This document shows positions 13,934-33,512 of a DNA stretch of 64,000 bases, in pieces. The stretch is from Nitrosomonas sp. (GTDB taxonomy: Bacteria; Pseudomonadota; Gammaproteobacteria; Burkholderiales; Nitrosomonadaceae): positions 62,001 to 126,000 of the forward strand of contig JAMWZY010000005.1 of the NCBI GenBank assembly GCA_024281825.1, written 5' to 3'. Each line of letters begins with the position of its first letter. Within the stretch, counting starts at the first letter, position 1. The notes under the pieces are model-generated. The model worked only from the letters and a program-made list of their open reading frames with translations. It was not told the origin of the DNA and searched no databases. A program made the position numbers and the translations under genes.

Positions 13934-14848
13934 CTACATTGAGTTGACTACAATTGATCCTCCAGATTCTCCTTGTACATTCACCCATAAATGTGGCAAA
14001 CCAAGCGCCTGTAACCATGTGGAGCCTTGCGTTTCTTTTAGCATGCCAATCGTTGCAGCACTTCCGGCCACAACGCAAAAATCACCAATGACGCTGACAG
14101 CGGCCATGTAATTAACAGGCCAGCCAGTTTTCGGGCTCAATACATGCCCGTAGCGGATACCATCAAGTAGCACGCATCTTTCGTAATCACCACTGCTTGC
14201 GACAGCACCGGAATATAACTCTAAGGTGGTCAATTTTTCATTCGATTCACGTGGATGGCGAATGGCCACGAGCCATGGGCTTTGGTCGAAATGCGGGCCG
14301 ATAATTTTGATGTCGCCTCCCAGATTGATAACCCCATGACGGATGCCATCTTGCCAGCATAATGAAGCGGCGCGGTCGACAGCATATTCTTTGACAATGC
14401 CGCCAAAGTCGATTTCCATTCCGGCAATGGTAAAAGTCAACTTGGGTTTTTCCCAACGTAAGTGATGCCATCCGATCCGATTAAGCAAAATCTGTATCGC
14501 TGCAGGTTCTGGTATGTTGCCAGACTTGAAATTCCATGCCCGACGCAAAATTCCGGATGTGATATCAAACAGCCCATCGCTTTGTTGGTAACAAGTTGCA
14601 GCATAATCCAATAACCCTGCAGTTTCATCGTCCACATGAATAGATTTGCCTTGCGCAGCGATACGATTCATTTTAGACAGCAAGCTGTCTTCTCGATAGC
14701 GCGAGTATTTGGCTTCTAAGCGATATACATCATCCATAGCGATTTTTGCAGCATGTTTACCTGCTTTTGAGTTGCGAGCATAAAGCTGGATAGAGCAAGG
14801 CGACCCCATTGCTTTGAAATCATAGTGATAGTAATTTAAACATGCCAT
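13934..14848 (-). CDS. apbE: ApbE family FAD:protein FMN transferase
   Basis: 304 residues. ApbE cleaves FAD and attaches FMN to a Ser/Thr of target proteins, using Mg2+. Visible family motifs: M-G-S-P-C-S-I near the N-terminus, D-F-G-G-I-V-K-E-Y-A-V-D, V-I-N-L-G-G-D-I, G-H-V-L-S-P-K-T-G-W-P-V and the C-terminal V-V-A-G-S-A-A-T-I-G-M-L. No signal peptide or lipobox is visible, and an in-frame stop lies just upstream, so this copy appears leaderless although most ApbE proteins work outside the cytoplasm. It is the last gene of a six-gene minus-strand operon, 89 nt after the DUF3570 gene that carries a candidate target motif. Confidence 0.92.
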   Translation of the reverse strand: MACLNYYHYDFKAMGSPCSIQLYARNSKAGKHAAKIAMDDVYRLEAKYSRYREDSLLSKMNRIAAQGKSIHVDDETAGLLDYAATCYQQSDGLFDITSGILRRAWNFKSGNIPEPAAIQILLNRIGWHHLRWEKPKLTFTIAGMEIDFGGIVKEYAVDRAASLCWQDGIRHGVINLGGDIKIIGPHFDQSPWLVAIRHPRESNEKLTTLELYSGAVASSGDYERCVLLDGIRYGHVLSPKTGWPVNYMAAVSVIGDFCVVAGSAATIGMLKETQGSTWLQALGLPHLWVNVQGESGGSIVVNSM

Positions 14849-14937
14849 GATGAATTTTTCAGCTTATTGATCATTAAGCATTTTAATTGAATCAAAGCAT
14901 AGTCATGATCAATGATTAGTTTGGATTGAGTATTTTA

Positions 14938-17676
14938 TTAAAATTGATAGTTCCAAGTGGCTGCGAGAGAACCTTTGCGATCCAGCTGGAATCCATTGAA
15001 GTCATTACTCACCGGTTGTATCCACTCAAAGCCAAAACGGTTGCCTGCAAAACGACCTCGCGGAATGGTGGCATTTAATCCAAAACCGACATCCCAAAAT
15101 TGTCCGCCGTAATTTTGTGGGAAATCCATCGGGCCGATACGTGAACTGGGTGCATCGAAATCGCGTTGAATAGCTCCCTGCCAGGTATAGATACCGCGTG
15201 CCGACGCGGTTAGCCATGGTACTAGATCAATTCCTCCCCATGCGGAAGCTTGGAAAAGATCGCCTAAACGGTAACCGGATTTGTTTTTCTCTTCCATACG
15301 TTTGGTGCCGCCGATTTGGGCACCCCATGACAATCGTTTTTTTTCACCGGTATAGGTCAGGCTGGACATAAAATCCCAGGTGCCACTACCAAGTTGCATA
15401 CCAAAGTGAATCAGACCAGGATCGATGCGATGAGCGCGCCGTTGCTCGATATCAACTTTTCCAGTGGGGGCACTAAAGCCGATATTGATATGCGCACGAT
15501 GACTGGGGATTTGAAACAGTTTAACTAGAGCAGACAAGTAAGTATCGCCAATCGCACCCGTTTCATGTCCGCCAATGCCGCTGTGACTATGCGATCCAGG
15601 GGGGGCGGCTGGTGTCGTGCCATCGAGTTTAAACAGGTTGCGCAGATTCATATTCATATCCATGAATGTTGGCATTAGCATGACGTTGAGCCACTTAGTC
15701 GGGGCATACATGATATCGATCATATGCATGTGCATATTCATATGAGTCGGTGTAAACCGGCAAGGTATCGTATCGCTGCAGCCTTGATCAATGATCGCCT
15801 GGTCTATGACAGCATGCGTACCCTGTTGCATTTGACCATTGGTTTTGTTTAGCATAAATCGATAGCCCACCATGAAATCCCCTTTGTTATCGAGCATGTG
15901 GCCAAACATGATGCCAGCTGGTGGTGTTTTATGAAGTGCGTGGTCAGATGCATGAGACTTGCTATGTGGTAACGCAAGGGGTGATCCGGGTATGTCGATT
16001 CTTTCCATATCGAGCTTGATAGCTGCATTGGCGACATAGTAATCAAAATCGGCAAAACTGCTGCCACCGCTACCGATCTGCATTGAGCTGGCGCGCGTGT
16101 AATATTCAAACCCTGTTTCCAAATCGACACCTTTCCATAAACGCTTTGTTAGCGTGAATCCACCACTCAGTGCACCAAATCCTGCGAGTCGGTGATCGCT
16201 AGAGAAATTCTTGGGGAGTAAGCCAGCATCGTAGGTAACAAATTGCGGTCGTGCAGCCTGTGCGATAGCATCGTCCACTAAATTCCCATTTTGATCAAAG
16301 AAGCTAAAACCATCGGAGGAGAAATATTGCACGTTTGGATTATTGCGATCAATAAAGACTTGCCGTCCTTGTGCATCTACGAGTGGTTTGCTAAATGCTT
16401 GTCGAGAAAATAAGTAATCACTATAGAAATTTGCTGTGTCTTGCGAATAGTAGCGAATGCGGGGTGTTAGCGTCCAATCATTGCCCAATGGTTGGACCCA
16501 GCTAGCATCAAAGGTGTGCGTGTTAACGCCCCAATCGTCGACCGACAATCGGTAGCCTAGATGTAACGCGGTATTGAAGGGGTTAATATGGTGAATATAT
16601 TTGGTATTCAATGCGACTTGATTACGAATATCGGGGCGTTGTTCAATAAGTGCTCGCACTTGACCATTGATGAATCTGGTTTGCTGGTTGTTTAAGTCAT
16701 CGGGATCAACGAAAATGATCGACATCGCTTTGTAAGGATTTTCCATGAAGCCATTACTATGCGTATAGCCAATACTTGCATCGAGTAAGGAATTCTTGCT
16801 CAAGATTTGCGTGACGCCGAGATTCGCGACCCAATCATGTCGATTGCCCTGAAGCACGTCCGATCCGGCTGCACCGCCTTTTCTGACAATCTGGTCTTGA
16901 TAGGCGGTTTTGGTGATGTAAGGTAATGAATCGTGATCGAGGATTGCACCAATGTCGCTGCTGGTATAACCTCCGCTGAATTTTACCGTGGTAAGTTTTT
17001 GATTGAAGTCTAAGCGCCCACCAATGCTCCCAAAACTGGATTTATAGTCTTTCTCACGGGAGAATCCTCCCGACACATGAATGGCAGCCTCATTCCATTC
17101 GTGACTCAAGCCGAAACTGGCTTGGCGGCGGGTTTCGGGTGAAGCAGATGACATGACGTGTACAGAACGTGGATCAACAATACCCGTTGATTGTTTGGTC
17201 AGGGGATCTCGACCGATCGGATCCAGGTTTCGGTCAAGTAGTACGTTACTATTGATCAAGGGAGATGCGCCTACTACCACCTGATTAACGGTTAATGGGC
17301 GGTTGCCTCCATCAGTAGCCAATGGTGTTGTGGTGATTGGCGTGGCTCCTGACCAAGTATCTTGTGTATAGCCGAATGAGAATTTAGTACGATCGGTCAA
17401 TGAGAAAGTACCGCTACCATGTAAAACATCTGCGCTGATGGGATTGTATTTGCTAGGTACTCCATATAAATTGCGCGTACCTTCTTCGTAGCGGCCGTAT
17501 TGAAAATTGATTCGATCTCCAGGAGCGGCTTGAGCTGGAGATGGCATCAATAAGCCAGGCAATACCAATGCAGCAGAGGTCAAAGCATGTAAGATATTTT
17601 TTGATTTTGCAGGTATTGTCTGCGAACAATTCTTATTGGCTAGCTGAAGTGTGGCTTTATGAGTGTGTTGCTGCAA
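14938..17676 (-). CDS. Large DUF3570-type outer-membrane protein with Met/His-rich C-terminal barrel
   Basis: 912 residues. The signal peptide ends near residues 50-51 (P-A-Q-A-A). Alternating polar/hydrophobic strands run throughout and the chain ends in aromatic F (W-N-Y-Q-F), the outer-membrane beta-barrel signature. Residues about 52-560 fit the DUF3570 family. Residues 106-112, D-T-W-S-G-A-T, match the ApbE target consensus D-x-x-S/T-G-A-T/S. The C-terminal third (about 585-912) looks like a second domain of the transporter type found near copper genes; it is rich in Met and His (H-M-N-M-H-M-H-M, then M-L-M-P-T-F-M-D-M-N-M-N). The fusion reading is inferred from length and composition. 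Confidence 0.8.
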   Translation of the reverse strand: MQQHTHKATLQLANKNCSQTIPAKSKNILHALTSAALVLPGLLMPSPAQAAPGDRINFQYGRYEEGTRNLYGVPSKYNPISADVLHGSGTFSLTDRTKFSFGYTQDTWSGATPITTTPLATDGGNRPLTVNQVVVGASPLINSNVLLDRNLDPIGRDPLTKQSTGIVDPRSVHVMSSASPETRRQASFGLSHEWNEAAIHVSGGFSREKDYKSSFGSIGGRLDFNQKLTTVKFSGGYTSSDIGAILDHDSLPYITKTAYQDQIVRKGGAAGSDVLQGNRHDWVANLGVTQILSKNSLLDASIGYTHSNGFMENPYKAMSIIFVDPDDLNNQQTRFINGQVRALIEQRPDIRNQVALNTKYIHHINPFNTALHLGYRLSVDDWGVNTHTFDASWVQPLGNDWTLTPRIRYYSQDTANFYSDYLFSRQAFSKPLVDAQGRQVFIDRNNPNVQYFSSDGFSFFDQNGNLVDDAIAQAARPQFVTYDAGLLPKNFSSDHRLAGFGALSGGFTLTKRLWKGVDLETGFEYYTRASSMQIGSGGSSFADFDYYVANAAIKLDMERIDIPGSPLALPHSKSHASDHALHKTPPAGIMFGHMLDNKGDFMVGYRFMLNKTNGQMQQGTHAVIDQAIIDQGCSDTIPCRFTPTHMNMHMHMIDIMYAPTKWLNVMLMPTFMDMNMNLRNLFKLDGTTPAAPPGSHSHSGIGGHETGAIGDTYLSALVKLFQIPSHRAHINIGFSAPTGKVDIEQRRAHRIDPGLIHFGMQLGSGTWDFMSSLTYTGEKKRLSWGAQIGGTKRMEEKNKSGYRLGDLFQASAWGGIDLVPWLTASARGIYTWQGAIQRDFDAPSSRIGPMDFPQNYGGQFWDVGFGLNATIPRGRFAGNRFGFEWIQPVSNDFNGFQLDRKGSLAATWNYQF

Positions 17677-17737
17677 TTCTTAAAATACCTCGTAGATGAA
17701 GCATTACTACGTGCAGAGCGATTGCAAACTGATTTTG

Positions 17738-17962
17738 CTAATAGCAACCGCAACCACCTCCACCTGATGAGGATTTATGGCTCGGTGCTGCTTCACGGCT
17801 ACTGTAATTATGAGATTGGAATTCGCTTTGCAAAGGATTAGGATCAACTTCCATGGAAGGTTTGGCTAGATTGCCACGCTCCCAAGGCGATACATTAACA
17901 CAACCCATGAGCTCAATACAGATAGTAATCAACAGCAGTTTTCGGGGCAAATAGGTTTTCAT
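17738..17962 (-). CDS. DUF4266 domain lipoprotein
   Basis: 74-residue lipoprotein from ATG 17962 (a TTG codon precedes it). Lipobox L-M-G-C at about residues 17-20, then the family block V-N-V-S-P-W-E-R-G-N-L-A-K-P-S-M, a D-P-N-P-L segment, and a C-terminal tail S-S-S-G-G-G-G-C-G-C-Y. The tail cysteines could bind metal or take part in thiol chemistry. DUF4266 proteins are found beside DUF3570, a TlpA-like thioredoxin and ApbE, as here. No function is established to my knowledge. 61 nt upstream of the DUF3570 gene. Confidence 0.88.
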   Translation of the reverse strand: MKTYLPRKLLLITICIELMGCVNVSPWERGNLAKPSMEVDPNPLQSEFQSHNYSSREAAPSHKSSSGGGGCGCY

Positions 17963-18004
17963 CAAAATACGTTTGATAAATCTCTCAAGGTCAAACCACC
18001 GCTA

Positions 18005-18571
18005 TTAAGGATTTTTAATGGCGACAGAACTACTGGGGTCCTCCAGTAGCAATTCAGTCACCAAGGTACGTAACTGTTGTGTTTCATCTGGGCGGAACCC
18101 TTTATGGATGTGGCGAATGTTGCCTTTCCGGTCAATAATGTAGGAAGTTGGCATCGCCATGACATTAAAACCTTTTGCGCATTGTTTGCTAGGATCAGTC
18201 GCGATAGAAAAATTCACCGGAAATTTTGCAAGAAATTCCTGCGCATCGGTTAATTTTTCATCCAAATTGACGCCAATCACATGCAAACCCTGATTCTTTA
18301 ACTCAGCTTCCAACTGATTGAGAAAAGGAAATGATTTAATGCACGGAGGACACCAAGATGCCCAAAAATCTACATAAACTACTTTTCCTTTAAGCTCATT
18401 CAATTCCAGTATCGGTTCGCCTTCCATATTGGTCAGCGTGCAAGAAGCAGAAATTTTTTCGAGATGATCGGCAATAGCTGACTGTGCCATTGTAAAAAAA
18501 GTGGCAAAAATGACTACAATACCAATACTAGTCATTAATAGAGGGTTTGTTTTTTTTCTAGGTGCTAACAT
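18005..18571 (-). CDS. TlpA-like periplasmic thioredoxin
   Basis: 188 residues from ATG 18571; a TTG at 18613 would add 14. An N-terminal membrane or signal helix is followed by a thioredoxin fold with the active site A-S-W-C-P-P-C. Later come V-I-G-V-N-L-D-E and the cis-Pro region M-A-M-P-T-S-Y, both typical of the TlpA/ResA group. These reduce or shuffle disulfides outside the cytoplasm, often for metal-protein assembly. In this operon the DUF4266 Cys tail is an obvious candidate partner (inference). Confidence 0.88.
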   Translation of the reverse strand: MLAPRKKTNPLLMTSIGIVVIFATFFTMAQSAIADHLEKISASCTLTNMEGEPILELNELKGKVVYVDFWASWCPPCIKSFPFLNQLEAELKNQGLHVIGVNLDEKLTDAQEFLAKFPVNFSIATDPSKQCAKGFNVMAMPTSYIIDRKGNIRHIHKGFRPDETQQLRTLVTELLLEDPSSSVAIKNP

Positions 18572-18621
18572 AAAAAATGCCAGAGTGTTAAATTTTAGAA
18601 CGCCATTTTGCAAGATTCATT

Positions 18622-19083
18622 TTAATTATTCAAACTACTAAACTGCTTAACCGTTATCGCTGTTCCTGTATGCTCTCCACCTGGTAGGCCATTATCAACT
18701 TTGCAGTGGTACGAAACTTCAAAAGCGCGTGCTCCAACTGCTGTTTTAGTGACGAGAAGTTGATAAGTACCAGTACCGCCATCTACTCGAGCAGGGAGTG
18801 AAAAATCATTGTCTCCTGAGACAGGGTCGGTAGTGCTGTCTGCTTGATTACCTTTGATAATCAATAAATTAGTCTGGAGTCCCGCAACTGCACCCGAGAG
18901 GTCTTTTACGGCTGCTTCCAGATAAGAGCTTGGGGGATCACAACTGACTAATGCATATCCTAAAAAATCAGCTTGTTCCCCTGTGACGGCACTTGCTTCA
19001 TGCGCTTGGTTCATGCCGACATGTCCGACCGAAAGTGCCAATAAGAGCATGCTGGTTGATTGTTTGATTCGATATCTTTGCAT
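18622..19083 (-). CDS. Secreted protein of unknown function
   Basis: 153 residues. A signal peptide is visible (hydrophobic S-M-L-L-L-A-L-S-V-G followed by N-Q-A-H-E-A). The mature part has two cysteines (V-S-C-D-P-P and S-Y-H-C-K-V) that could form a disulfide. It looks like a small beta-sandwich. No family recognised. Position as second gene of the operon, 50 nt before the TlpA start, ties it to the copper/flavin theme only by context. Confidence 0.7.
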   Translation of the reverse strand: MQRYRIKQSTSMLLLALSVGHVGMNQAHEASAVTGEQADFLGYALVSCDPPSSYLEAAVKDLSGAVAGLQTNLLIIKGNQADSTTDPVSGDNDFSLPARVDGGTGTYQLLVTKTAVGARAFEVSYHCKVDNGLPGGEHTGTAITVKQFSSLNN

Positions 19084-19182
19084 GATGTTTTTTCCTTATA
19101 GTTCTTTTCCTGCTTAAATCCTTGCCCATTTTACAATATCTGGGCAAGGGATTCTTTGAATCGATCTACATTTTACCTTACA

Positions 19183-19938
19183 TTAAGGTGCAGGCCATAC
19201 TTGTGCGCCATTGAGTTTGATTGGCATATCACGATTAATCTGCGCTGCGGAAGGTTTCACTTCAACGACTTTTCCGGTTGTGCCACAAGAAGCCGGTAGC
19301 GCGGCACGCTTAAAGGTTAATGATGCAGGGCCGTCATCTGCAGTAGGGCTAGCAGGATCTACAGCTCTATCGTAAGGAGTGCCGAGGTTATTATGTGTCC
19401 AGAGATTGACGGTTTCTGCGCTAAATCCAGAAATCGGTGTTATTTCACAAATATCCGCAACGGATACATAAACTTTAACACTGGCTGCGCACGAATCGGC
19501 CTTGAAAGTAGCAGCACTGACTCGAAAAGGTATGAATCCAGCTAGATTATGGGGGAGCGAATCTCCGCCACCTGCCCAAAACCCTAATACATTTCCTATA
19601 TCATCCACTTTTTCGTCTTGAAATTTGAAAACAGCCGTACTGTATATTTTCTGATTGAGGTTGCCCCAGTTCTCGATAAAGTCTGTAATTTTTCCGGTGT
19701 AAGGTGCACCATCAACCGTAATGGTCGAATCAACACCATCAGGAAATACGATGCTGGTGCCAATAATATTTTTTTCTCCACAACCGTGGCCGATCACAAC
19801 GTTATTTGTGATTCTGACACCTTCGGTGACTTCTGGCACTTCCAGTCGAGTATGCGCCAATAAGCTCGTGCTCATTAGGGCGATCGTTGATGCGACGAAC
19901 GATGTCGCAATAAAATTTAGCTTGTGATTCTTACGCAT
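19183..19938 (-). CDS. YcnI/DUF1775-like secreted copper-binding protein
   Basis: 251 residues, first gene of the operon. The signal peptide is followed by L-L-A-H-T-R-L, so the mature protein would start with His; YcnI proteins bind copper through an N-terminal His. The G-H-G-C-G-E-K-N stretch followed by V-F-P-D-G matches the H-G-C block of the DUF1775 family. It is longer and more divergent than typical YcnI, so the family call is moderate. A paired Cys set further on (A-D-S-C-A-A, A-D-I-C-E-I, A-S-C-G-T) may form disulfides. A 358-nt upstream region with a perfect palindrome precedes it. Confidence 0.68.
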   Translation of the reverse strand: MRKNHKLNFIATSFVASTIALMSTSLLAHTRLEVPEVTEGVRITNNVVIGHGCGEKNIIGTSIVFPDGVDSTITVDGAPYTGKITDFIENWGNLNQKIYSTAVFKFQDEKVDDIGNVLGFWAGGGDSLPHNLAGFIPFRVSAATFKADSCAASVKVYVSVADICEITPISGFSAETVNLWTHNNLGTPYDRAVDPASPTADDGPASLTFKRAALPASCGTTGKVVEVKPSAAQINRDMPIKLNGAQVWPAP

Positions 19939-20296
19939 GATGACTTCCTGTAAATTATAGTGTTTAATGGGTCAAGAAACATTGCCATTGATTAAAAATT
20001 AATTATTGTTTTTTATGTGGAAACACTGAGTCATAGAGTCATAGCACATTAATCAGCATCCACTGTTCGATTATCTTTTTCTGATGTGAAAATAGCAATG
20101 CGACAAATTGTCGCACCCCCTATCTTGTATCGTGAGTAATCATGGTCGCTATGGGTTGGTATTAAGTTTTGATTGAAGCAATGCGTTTCATGAATTTTGT
20201 TTGGGTAAATCCGTATTGGGCAATATAGCTAGGATTGCCCGGTAACATAGTAAATAGGGGTGAGGTCATTTCTAAATTTGTTGCGGAAAGAGGAGT
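19939..20296. other. 358-nt divergent intergenic region with a GCGACA palindrome
   Basis: Lies between the copper/flavin operon (leftward) and a small conserved gene (rightward). A short minus-strand frame at 20162-20371 has no family features and overlaps the rightward gene, so it was not called. The one structured element is the palindrome at 20099-20115. Confidence 0.6.
20099..20115. repeat. Palindrome TGCGACAAATTGTCGCA
   Basis: Two 8-bp arms around one central base. A nearly identical element is at 33293-33309, and 20 of 21 bases match when flanks are included. Both lie in divergent promoter regions, so an operator for a dimeric regulator is plausible. The regulator is not identified. 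Confidence 0.6.
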
Positions 20297-31554: not shown

Positions 31555-31821
31555 ATGAAGAAGCAGAGATTTACGGAAAGTCAGATTATGCAGATACTGA
31601 AGCAGGCTGAGGGCGGAATACCTGTGGCAGATTTATGCCGAGAGTATGGAATGAGCAATGCAAGTTTTTATAAATGGCGAAGCAAGTATGGCGGAATGGA
31701 CGTTGCGATGGTTTCAGAAATGAAAGCAATGGCTGAGGAAAACAAGCGATTAAAGCGGATGTATGCGGAAAGCCAGATGTAGAATGAGCTGTTGAAGGAG
31801 GCGCTCGGAAAAAAGTGGTAA
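31555..31821 (+). pseudogene. IS3-family OrfA with internal amber stop
   Basis: Helix-turn-helix DNA-binding protein of the IS. Starts K-K-Q-R-F-T-E-S-Q-I-M-Q-I-L-K-Q, with V-A-D-L-C-R-E-Y-G-M-S-N-A-S-F-Y-K-W typical of the IS407/IS3 group. The frame is stopped by TAG at 31780-31782 exactly where the family has Gln (E-S-Q-M-[*][11 protein letters not shown]). It then continues open to TAA at 31819. A single C-to-T change explains the stop. The downstream A6G (31809-31815) would be the -1 frameshift site for the OrfAB fusion, which now cannot form without readthrough. Confidence 0.88.
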
Positions 31822-32669
31822 AACCCTCACAGCGTAAGGTGATGGCACAGTGGGCAGTACAGGATAAGTCCGTTAGTATCGTTTTGGCGTGTGCAACATT
31901 TTGCATTTCTGAGACCTGCTATCGTTATCGACCAATGCGCAACGATGAGAACGAGGAAATTGCCGATTGGTTACTCCGTTTGACGGCTTGCCACAAGCGC
32001 TGGGGCTTTGGTTTGTGCTTCCTTTATTTGCGTAATGTGAAGGGTTTTGGATGGAATCACAAACGGGTGTATCGTATTTACCGTGAGCTGGAATTAAATT
32101 TACGAATTAAGCCGCGCAAGCGCTTAAAGCGAGATAAGCCCGAGCCATTGGCTGTGCCAGAACGGCCCAATGACACATGGTCGATGGATTTCATGGCTGA
32201 TCAACTCGCCAATGGCAGATCTTTTCGAACTTTTAATGTGCTGGATGACTTCAATCGTGAAGGGTTGGGAATCGAAGTGGATGTATCGCTTCCATCAGAA
32301 CGCGTTACGCGGGCTCTGGATCGGATTATTGAATGGCGCGGCAAACCCAAAAAGATTCGTTGTGATAACGGGCCCGAAAATATCAGTGCCACTCTCTGTT
32401 GGGCAGAAACTCGAGGAATACAGCTTGATTACATTCAGCCAGGAAAACCACAACAGAATGCTTATATAGAACGCTATAACAGAACTGTTCGGCATGAATG
32501 GCTGGAGATGAATGACTTTGCAACCATTGAAGAGGCGCAACTCACTGCGACACAGTGGTTGTGGATTTACAATAATGAACGTCCGAGTATGGCGCTTGGA
32601 GGTATAACGCCAGCCATGAAGTTGGCAGGAACTTTTAAACTAAAATTCTCTACTGCAAACTCCTGTTAA
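31815..32669 (+). CDS. IS3-family transposase OrfB
   Basis: 284 residues, GTG start, in the -1 frame relative to OrfA. Integrase-type catalytic core with all three acidic residues visible: D in T-W-S-M-D-F-M, D in R-C-D-N-G-P-E and E in N-A-Y-I-E-R-Y-N. The N-terminal HTH_21-type region is complete. The frame is intact, but the active form in this family is the OrfAB fusion. Confidence 0.92.
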
Positions 32670-33292: not shown

Positions 33293-33309
33293 TGCGACAA
33301 AATGTCGCA
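33293..33309. repeat. Palindrome TGCGACAAAATGTCGCA
   Basis: 7-bp arms around AAA; differs by one base from the element at 20099-20115. It lies between the divergent PEP-CTERM-like gene (leftward) and the tiny lipoprotein gene (rightward), 70 nt and 86 nt from their starts, a fit for a shared operator. Confidence 0.6.
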
Positions 33310-33395: not shown

Positions 33396-33512
33396 ATGAA
33401 TACTTTCCATAACAAAATCATATTGCTGAGTTTATTGTTAGTGGGGATGCCGCTACTTTCAGGTTGTTGGGTTTTGGCAGCAGCTGGTGCGGGTGCATAT
33501 GGTGGATATTAA
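33396..33512 (+). CDS. 38-residue glycine-rich lipoprotein
   Basis: Read directly from the sequence. CGGAG lies about 8 nt upstream of the ATG. The leader L-L-S-L-L-L-V-G-M-P-L ends in the lipobox L-S-G-C. The mature part W-V-L-A-A-A-G-A-G-A-Y-G-G-Y is only about 15 residues, a glycine-zipper-like membrane segment. Similar mini-lipoproteins exist in PEP-CTERM/exopolysaccharide-producing bacteria; role unknown. Confidence 0.65.
   Translation: MNTFHNKIILLSLLLVGMPLLSGCWVLAAAGAGAYGGY

Follow-up and report, generated by a model that had tools for sequence, protein, structure and literature searches.

The closest described counterparts of the locus considered here are the flavinylation clusters reported by Meheust et al. 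in 2021 (PMC8238504), in which genes for DsbD or a thioredoxin, DUF4266, DUF3570 and the flavin mononucleotide (FMN) transferase ApbE stand together. In Chlorobium luteolum, the cognate ApbE attaches flavin to the DUF3570 protein at two [S/T]GA[S/T] sites (PMC8238504). The four-gene core is thus already published, and the parts of that paper drawn on here leave its function open. The same four families are adjacent in a 64,000-nucleotide stretch of Nitrosomonas sp. (assembly GCA_024281825.1, contig JAMWZY010000005.1, positions 62,001 to 126,000; hereafter the window), where six genes between positions 13934 and 19938 form a conserved envelope unit that quite possibly serves copper uptake at the outer membrane. 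An earlier note on this DNA had found no characterised version to cite; the 2021 description of the core and the one flavinylated DUF3570 protein correct it in part.

As in the published clusters, the DUF3570 protein is a predicted ApbE substrate and its DUF4266 partner ends in a CxC tail. The differences are that DUF3570 is here fused to a methionine-rich predicted barrel, that the protein has one canonical FMN motif instead of two, and that two extra families of secreted proteins with a predicted N-terminal histidine (His-first), as well as an upstream palindrome, belong to the locus; a link to copper is not mentioned in the consulted parts of the 2021 paper.

Other known proteins resemble single parts of the system. 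The COG4313/PF13557 channels (PDB 4RL8) share only 13% identity with the second barrel, which here is fused behind DUF3570. Multi-barrel outer-membrane proteins such as GfcD also have two predicted barrel domains per chain, and are tied to capsule export, with neither a flavin motif nor a methionine ladder mentioned in the sections of that report used here (PMC11494523). In Methylococcus capsulatus, copC is found in copper-responding gene clusters along with genes for multihaem cytochromes, TonB proteins and a beta-barrel (PMC4831470). Metalloprotein discovery through the N-terminal histidine is the subject of a 2025 paper, which names neither Nitrosomonas, methanotrophs nor ApbE in its accessible portion (PMC12537917). 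Open-licence full texts (supplements excluded) on YcnI, ApbE, copper uptake and Nitrosomonas under copper limitation yielded no description of this system, and for DUF3570 and DUF4266 they led to the 2021 paper alone.

A six-gene unit around a predicted double-barrel protein

The unit consists of six open reading frames (ORFs), all on the minus strand and separated by 99, 8, 39, 61 and 89 bases. The earlier note had called these close-set genes, had named ApbE, DUF3570, DUF4266 and a thioredoxin among them, and had described the 251-residue protein as His-first and the barrel as Met/His-rich; the ORFs lie where it placed them, Pfam supports all four families, and both descriptions are correct. 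The earlier note did not mention the fusion of two barrel domains, the palindrome or the co-occurrence of the fused form with copper monooxygenases. Sequence and counts over relatives establish this co-occurrence as well as the gene order, the palindrome, the fusion with its FMN motif and methionine ladder, and the conservation of the histidines.

The first two genes (19183..19938 and 18622..19083) encode secreted proteins of 251 and 153 residues, neither of them with a Pfam match in the window, whose families are here named YCN and U153. They are followed by a TlpA/ResA-like periplasmic thioredoxin with a CPPC motif (18005..18613; Pfam Redoxin/AhpC-TSA, 8.9e-25, rather than the PF13899 named in the 2021 paper), a small DUF4266 lipoprotein with a C-terminal CGC(Y) tail (17738..17965; Pfam, 6.5e-20), the 912-residue barrel protein (14938..17676) and ApbE, an FAD:protein FMN transferase (13934..14848; Pfam, 1.2e-68). 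The CPPC motif is present in 74 of 90 aligned thioredoxins (93 in the cluster), and the CxC tail in all 65 aligned DUF4266 proteins (66 in the cluster), with a lipobox pattern in 57.

Homology and a fold model predict that the 912-residue protein is composed of two outer-membrane barrels in one chain. Barrel 1 is the DUF3570 domain (residues 30-547, 16036..17589; Pfam, 7.8e-103), spanning residues of about 49-557 in the model, and barrel 2 is a COG4313-like, Met/His-rich channel domain (residues 588-912, 14941..15915). PF13557 is not matched by the window protein at E values up to 0.05, and is carried by 25 of the 120 relatives listed, at 44-58% identity. The flavin-attachment motif of barrel 1 is SGAT (residues 109-112, 17341..17352), in the context DTWSGATP (106-113). 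It is the only canonical one: of the two [S/T]GA[S/T] motifs described for DUF3570 in 2021, as a conserved trait and not as what defines the cluster, the window protein has only the first, its second site being the degenerate VGAS (residues 135-138). Across 97 fused relatives, length-filtered out of 100 in the cluster, the first site fits the pattern in 89 and the second in 19, with GA(S/T)P retained at the second site in all 97.

Barrel 2 carries the methionine ladder (residues 646-676, 15649..15741), located by alignment and model on two antiparallel strands (641-657 and 663-680). In the same 97 proteins, methionine occupies positions 646, 650, 652, 656, 666, 668 and 676 without exception, positions 648 and 674 in 96, and position 672 in 83; in a 15-sequence alignment that includes standalone relatives, positions 648, 650, 652, 656, 666, 668 and 676 do not vary, and conservation reaches at least 90% at 646 and 674. 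Since the ladder positions are all even-numbered, the methionines fall on one strand face, which they share with D/N at 654, N at 664 and a further polar residue at 670. By the turn, the opposite face shows L/I/V, I/L, Y and L, V/L, L, P, F, a composition that would suit contact with lipid, and on this turn half of the strands we read the methionine face as the probable lumen. Standalone methionine-ladder barrels occur as well: at loci L194 and L197 (by the look of the sequences also at L202, L203 and L206) they adjoin a two-component pair, in which the histidine kinase has a membrane part resembling PilS and the response regulator is RegA-like, and a pair of the same kind is found at L279, in the window's genome.

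The two His-first families have a partial precedent in YcnI, which holds Cu(II) via its N-terminal histidine and a glutamate, with a tryptophan nearby (PMC8424229). In the window's YCN, the predicted mature N terminus after signal cleavage is His29-Thr30, and Glu39, His51, Trp180 and four cysteines are conserved. Among 121 aligned members, length-filtered out of 131, histidine is found at predicted mature position 1 in 119 (preceded by A in 104 of 120 and by S in 14 of 120), Glu39 in 111, His51 in 119 and Trp180 in all 121. The ligand types through which YcnI binds Cu(II) therefore recur in YCN, where they may mark an equivalent copper site. The label YcnI-like, given in the earlier note, fails as a family call: none of 30 YCN relatives matches PF07987 at E values up to 1, and the YCN family profile retrieves no YcnI chain from the PDB sequences at E values up to 10. 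YCN further differs from YcnI and other DUF1775 proteins in its four conserved cysteines, its length of about 250 residues and its tie to the DUF3570 operon. In U153, the predicted mature protein of the window starts at His28, and Cys48, Cys127, His126 and His138 are conserved; position 28 is His in 94 and Asp in 13 of 110 members (length-filtered out of 114), both cysteines are present in all 110, and both histidines in 107. Its predicted fold is a beta-sandwich (mean predicted local distance difference test score 84), whose fold matches are generic only.

Conservation, distribution and the operator-like palindrome

Conservation was followed over 100 loci, made up of the best 80 of 530 barrel-2 relatives from named genomes (judged by title, 57 come from ammonia oxidisers, 17 from methanotrophs and 6 from other proteobacteria) and 20 genome stretches, with some overlap of organisms. 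YCN is present in 90 and U153 in 91, and the usual gene order is YCN, U153, TlpA, DUF4266, DUF3570 and ApbE. The earlier note had proposed a gene-neighbourhood survey for DUF3570, DUF4266, TlpA, ApbE and YcnI. By script, all six families stand together, far beyond chance, in at least 38 of the 48 Nitrosomonas-type loci whose flanks are long enough; nine of the remaining ten are scored without ApbE (one of them also without YCN) and one without DUF4266. These counts are floors, ApbE lying directly downstream at two of the nine, L092 and L094, where the script missed it. The same holds for the 13 gammaproteobacterial loci, the family profiles having been trained mostly on Nitrosomonas: all six families are found in at least three of them, YCN in 11, U153 in 12, TlpA in 12, ApbE in 7 and DUF4266 in 4.

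Variants of the cassette are seen at several loci. A further family, c8, is present at 22 loci (for example L115:5326-6120), often between YCN and U153, with a HEAT-repeat match in the one member scanned. Loci L226 and L227, both on contig 11 of one genome, hold the paralogous cassettes U153/BNR-repeat protein/thioredoxin/YCN and YCN/c8/U153/YCN, with an MbtH gene directly ahead of one U153.

Within the family Nitrosomonadaceae, DUF3570 is found in 69 of 120 genomes, all within one of four genera. In a class sample of 369 genomes, DUF3570 occurs in 95 and PF02461, the copper monooxygenase marker used here, in 11. A frame of about 900 residues with both barrel domains is found in four genomes (G000, G003, G293 and G368), all of which carry PF02461, vs 7 of the 365 others (Fisher p 4e-7); with the window's genus excluded, PF02461 is present in both of the fused genomes left (2/2, Fisher p 5e-4). 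For DUF3570 of any kind, the corresponding counts are 7 of 95 vs 4 of 274 (Fisher p 0.008). In the order of G368, DUF3570 occurs in 96 of 151 genomes, and a frame of at least 840 residues, judged by length only, in 83 of the 94 genomes among those listed. A lineage-specific expansion is apparent in this order, with ten long DUF3570 frames in G578 and seven in G584, again by length only.

An operator-like palindrome, TGCGACA-N3-TGTCGCA (20099..20115), lies upstream of the operon. Over the 100 loci, the exact core GCGACA-N3-TGTCGC occurs at 72 unique sites, of which 43 are upstream of YCN, 18 of U153 and 11 elsewhere. The full motif, scanned with at most two mismatches and within 400 bases upstream in 61 Nitrosomonas-type loci among 80 contigs, precedes 74 of 83 YCN and 22 of 67 U153 genes, and none of the 60 DUF3570, 59 TlpA or 45 ApbE genes; in a shuffled control it appears in 4 of 2000 430-mers. 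This pattern fits a single transcription unit that begins at YCN and in some cases anew at U153.

Five exact cores, vs one for a reversed control pattern, are present in the window's genome: at this operon, at window position 33293, at one YCN on contig 11, at the gene for a 290-residue protein followed by a TonB-dependent receptor, and at an amidohydrolase. Twelve of 14 other Nitrosomonas genomes contain the core, with 43 sites vs 3 for the control. In G011, which is devoid of DUF3570, it lies ahead of copC-copD, directly downstream of amoA/amoB-like genes, and also ahead of genes for TonB, a TonB-dependent receptor, MbtH and an extracytoplasmic function (ECF) sigma factor. G007 is likewise devoid of DUF3570, and there the core precedes PepSY_TM and, by the look of the sequences, TonB and a receptor. 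The second exact palindrome of the window (33293-33309) is followed after some 90 bases by a lipoprotein-like ORF of 38 codons (33396-33512; MNTFHNKI...LLSGCW...), and a gene that looks transposase-like by eye (31815-32669) is close to it. Loci L312 and L313, on contigs 8 and 10 of one genome, show one intact-looking amoCAB and a second copy, with A and B frames interrupted, beside copC-copD.

Proposed copper uptake and its rivals

The earlier note had suggested an outer-membrane redox or copper-uptake system, and this proposal is favoured by the ladder, the His-first proteins, the association with copper monooxygenases and the operator in common with TonB-dependent uptake genes, while the metal, the order of the electron carriers and the direction of transport are what we infer. 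In the mechanism proposed, YCN and U153 would hold Cu(II) and present it as an electron acceptor. Electrons would run from a DsbD-type donor through the thioredoxin and the DUF4266 CxC tail to the FMN on barrel 1, and this chain would reduce Cu(II). The methionines predicted to line the lumen of barrel 2 would then relay Cu(I) inward over the outer membrane, towards ammonia monooxygenase. A bolder version, possible and rather doubtful, is that the locus represents an undescribed class of metal importer, in which a single chain joins a covalent-flavin barrel, acting as cupric reductase, to a methionine-ladder barrel, acting as Cu(I) channel. Two new families of His-first copper-binding proteins would feed this importer, which would be dedicated to the copper monooxygenases of ammonia oxidisers and gammaproteobacterial methanotrophs, including those genomes in which long DUF3570 genes number as many as ten.

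Several observations weigh against copper uptake. The lumen assignment is taken from residue alternation, and away from the turn the non-methionine face is polar as well (N/D at 647, R/H/K at 649, H at 651, D at 673 and D/E/N at 675), so that the assignment rests on the turn half. No signal peptide was seen by eye in the window's ApbE or in ten members of its family, which is odd for an enzyme with an exported substrate. DsbD is absent among the six genes, the part of the window covered for it, and a DsbD_TM-like neighbour appears at two loci, the one scanned falling below the curated cut-off. The association counts come from phylogenetically non-independent genomes, and the fusion is absent from 7 of the 11 PF02461 genomes of the class sample. 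The copC link is confined to one species, and to 1 of 35 scannable copC upstream regions, and the ECF sigma factor, the MbtH gene and the phosphopantetheinyl transferase downstream of MbtH suit siderophores and iron.

The main rival is iron, since such siderophore-type genes are among the partners of the operator. The flavin and thiol chain at the outer membrane would in that case reduce Fe(III), and Fe(II) or an iron chelate would enter through the barrels, a reading to which the operator sites ahead of TonB, receptors, the ECF sigma factor and the MbtH/phosphopantetheinyl transferase unit lend weight, as does the VIT1 ferrous iron transporter, reported in 25 gene clusters of DUF3570 systems (PMC8238504). 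Against iron stand the co-occurrence of the fusion with copper monooxygenases and the one operator site at copC-copD. An invariant methionine ladder and His-first proteins also suit copper over iron on general grounds of metal chemistry, and we consider iron unlikely.

Copper defence, where the unit would export, oxidise or sequester surplus envelope copper, could account for the CusA/CzcA-type pump cluster present at 7 of the 100 loci (identical or nearly identical organisms account for some of the seven, and one member was identified by profile), and Met-rich proteins are common in copper resistance. The pump cluster is counted in favour of the uptake reading as well. A reducing thioredoxin/FMN chain would nevertheless run the wrong way for detoxification, several of the genes that share the operator serve uptake, and the link to copper monooxygenases suits demand over excess, which makes defence improbable. 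The FMN barrel and thiol chain could also serve a flavin-based electron conduit over the outer membrane, used in respiration or redox balance and with metal binding as a secondary trait (PMC8238504). A Foldseek search of the model places chain B of the Mtr complex at rank 4; this match is one of many barrels, with a TM-score of 0.22. None of the eight recurrent neighbours scanned is a cytochrome, and a conduit would leave the His-first proteins and the ladder unexplained, so that this function appears highly improbable. Chain B is presumably MtrB.

Copper uptake, as the reading preferred here, would bear on how these bacteria supply their central enzymes. Ammonia and methane oxidation need copper monooxygenases, and methanobactin is known mainly from some methanotrophs; the gene set offers a concrete candidate for the entry of copper at the outer membrane. 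It can be tested through one double-barrel protein, one FMN threonine, seven invariant methionines, two secreted proteins and one operator. If true, it would extend covalent-flavin redox chemistry to a channel within the same polypeptide.
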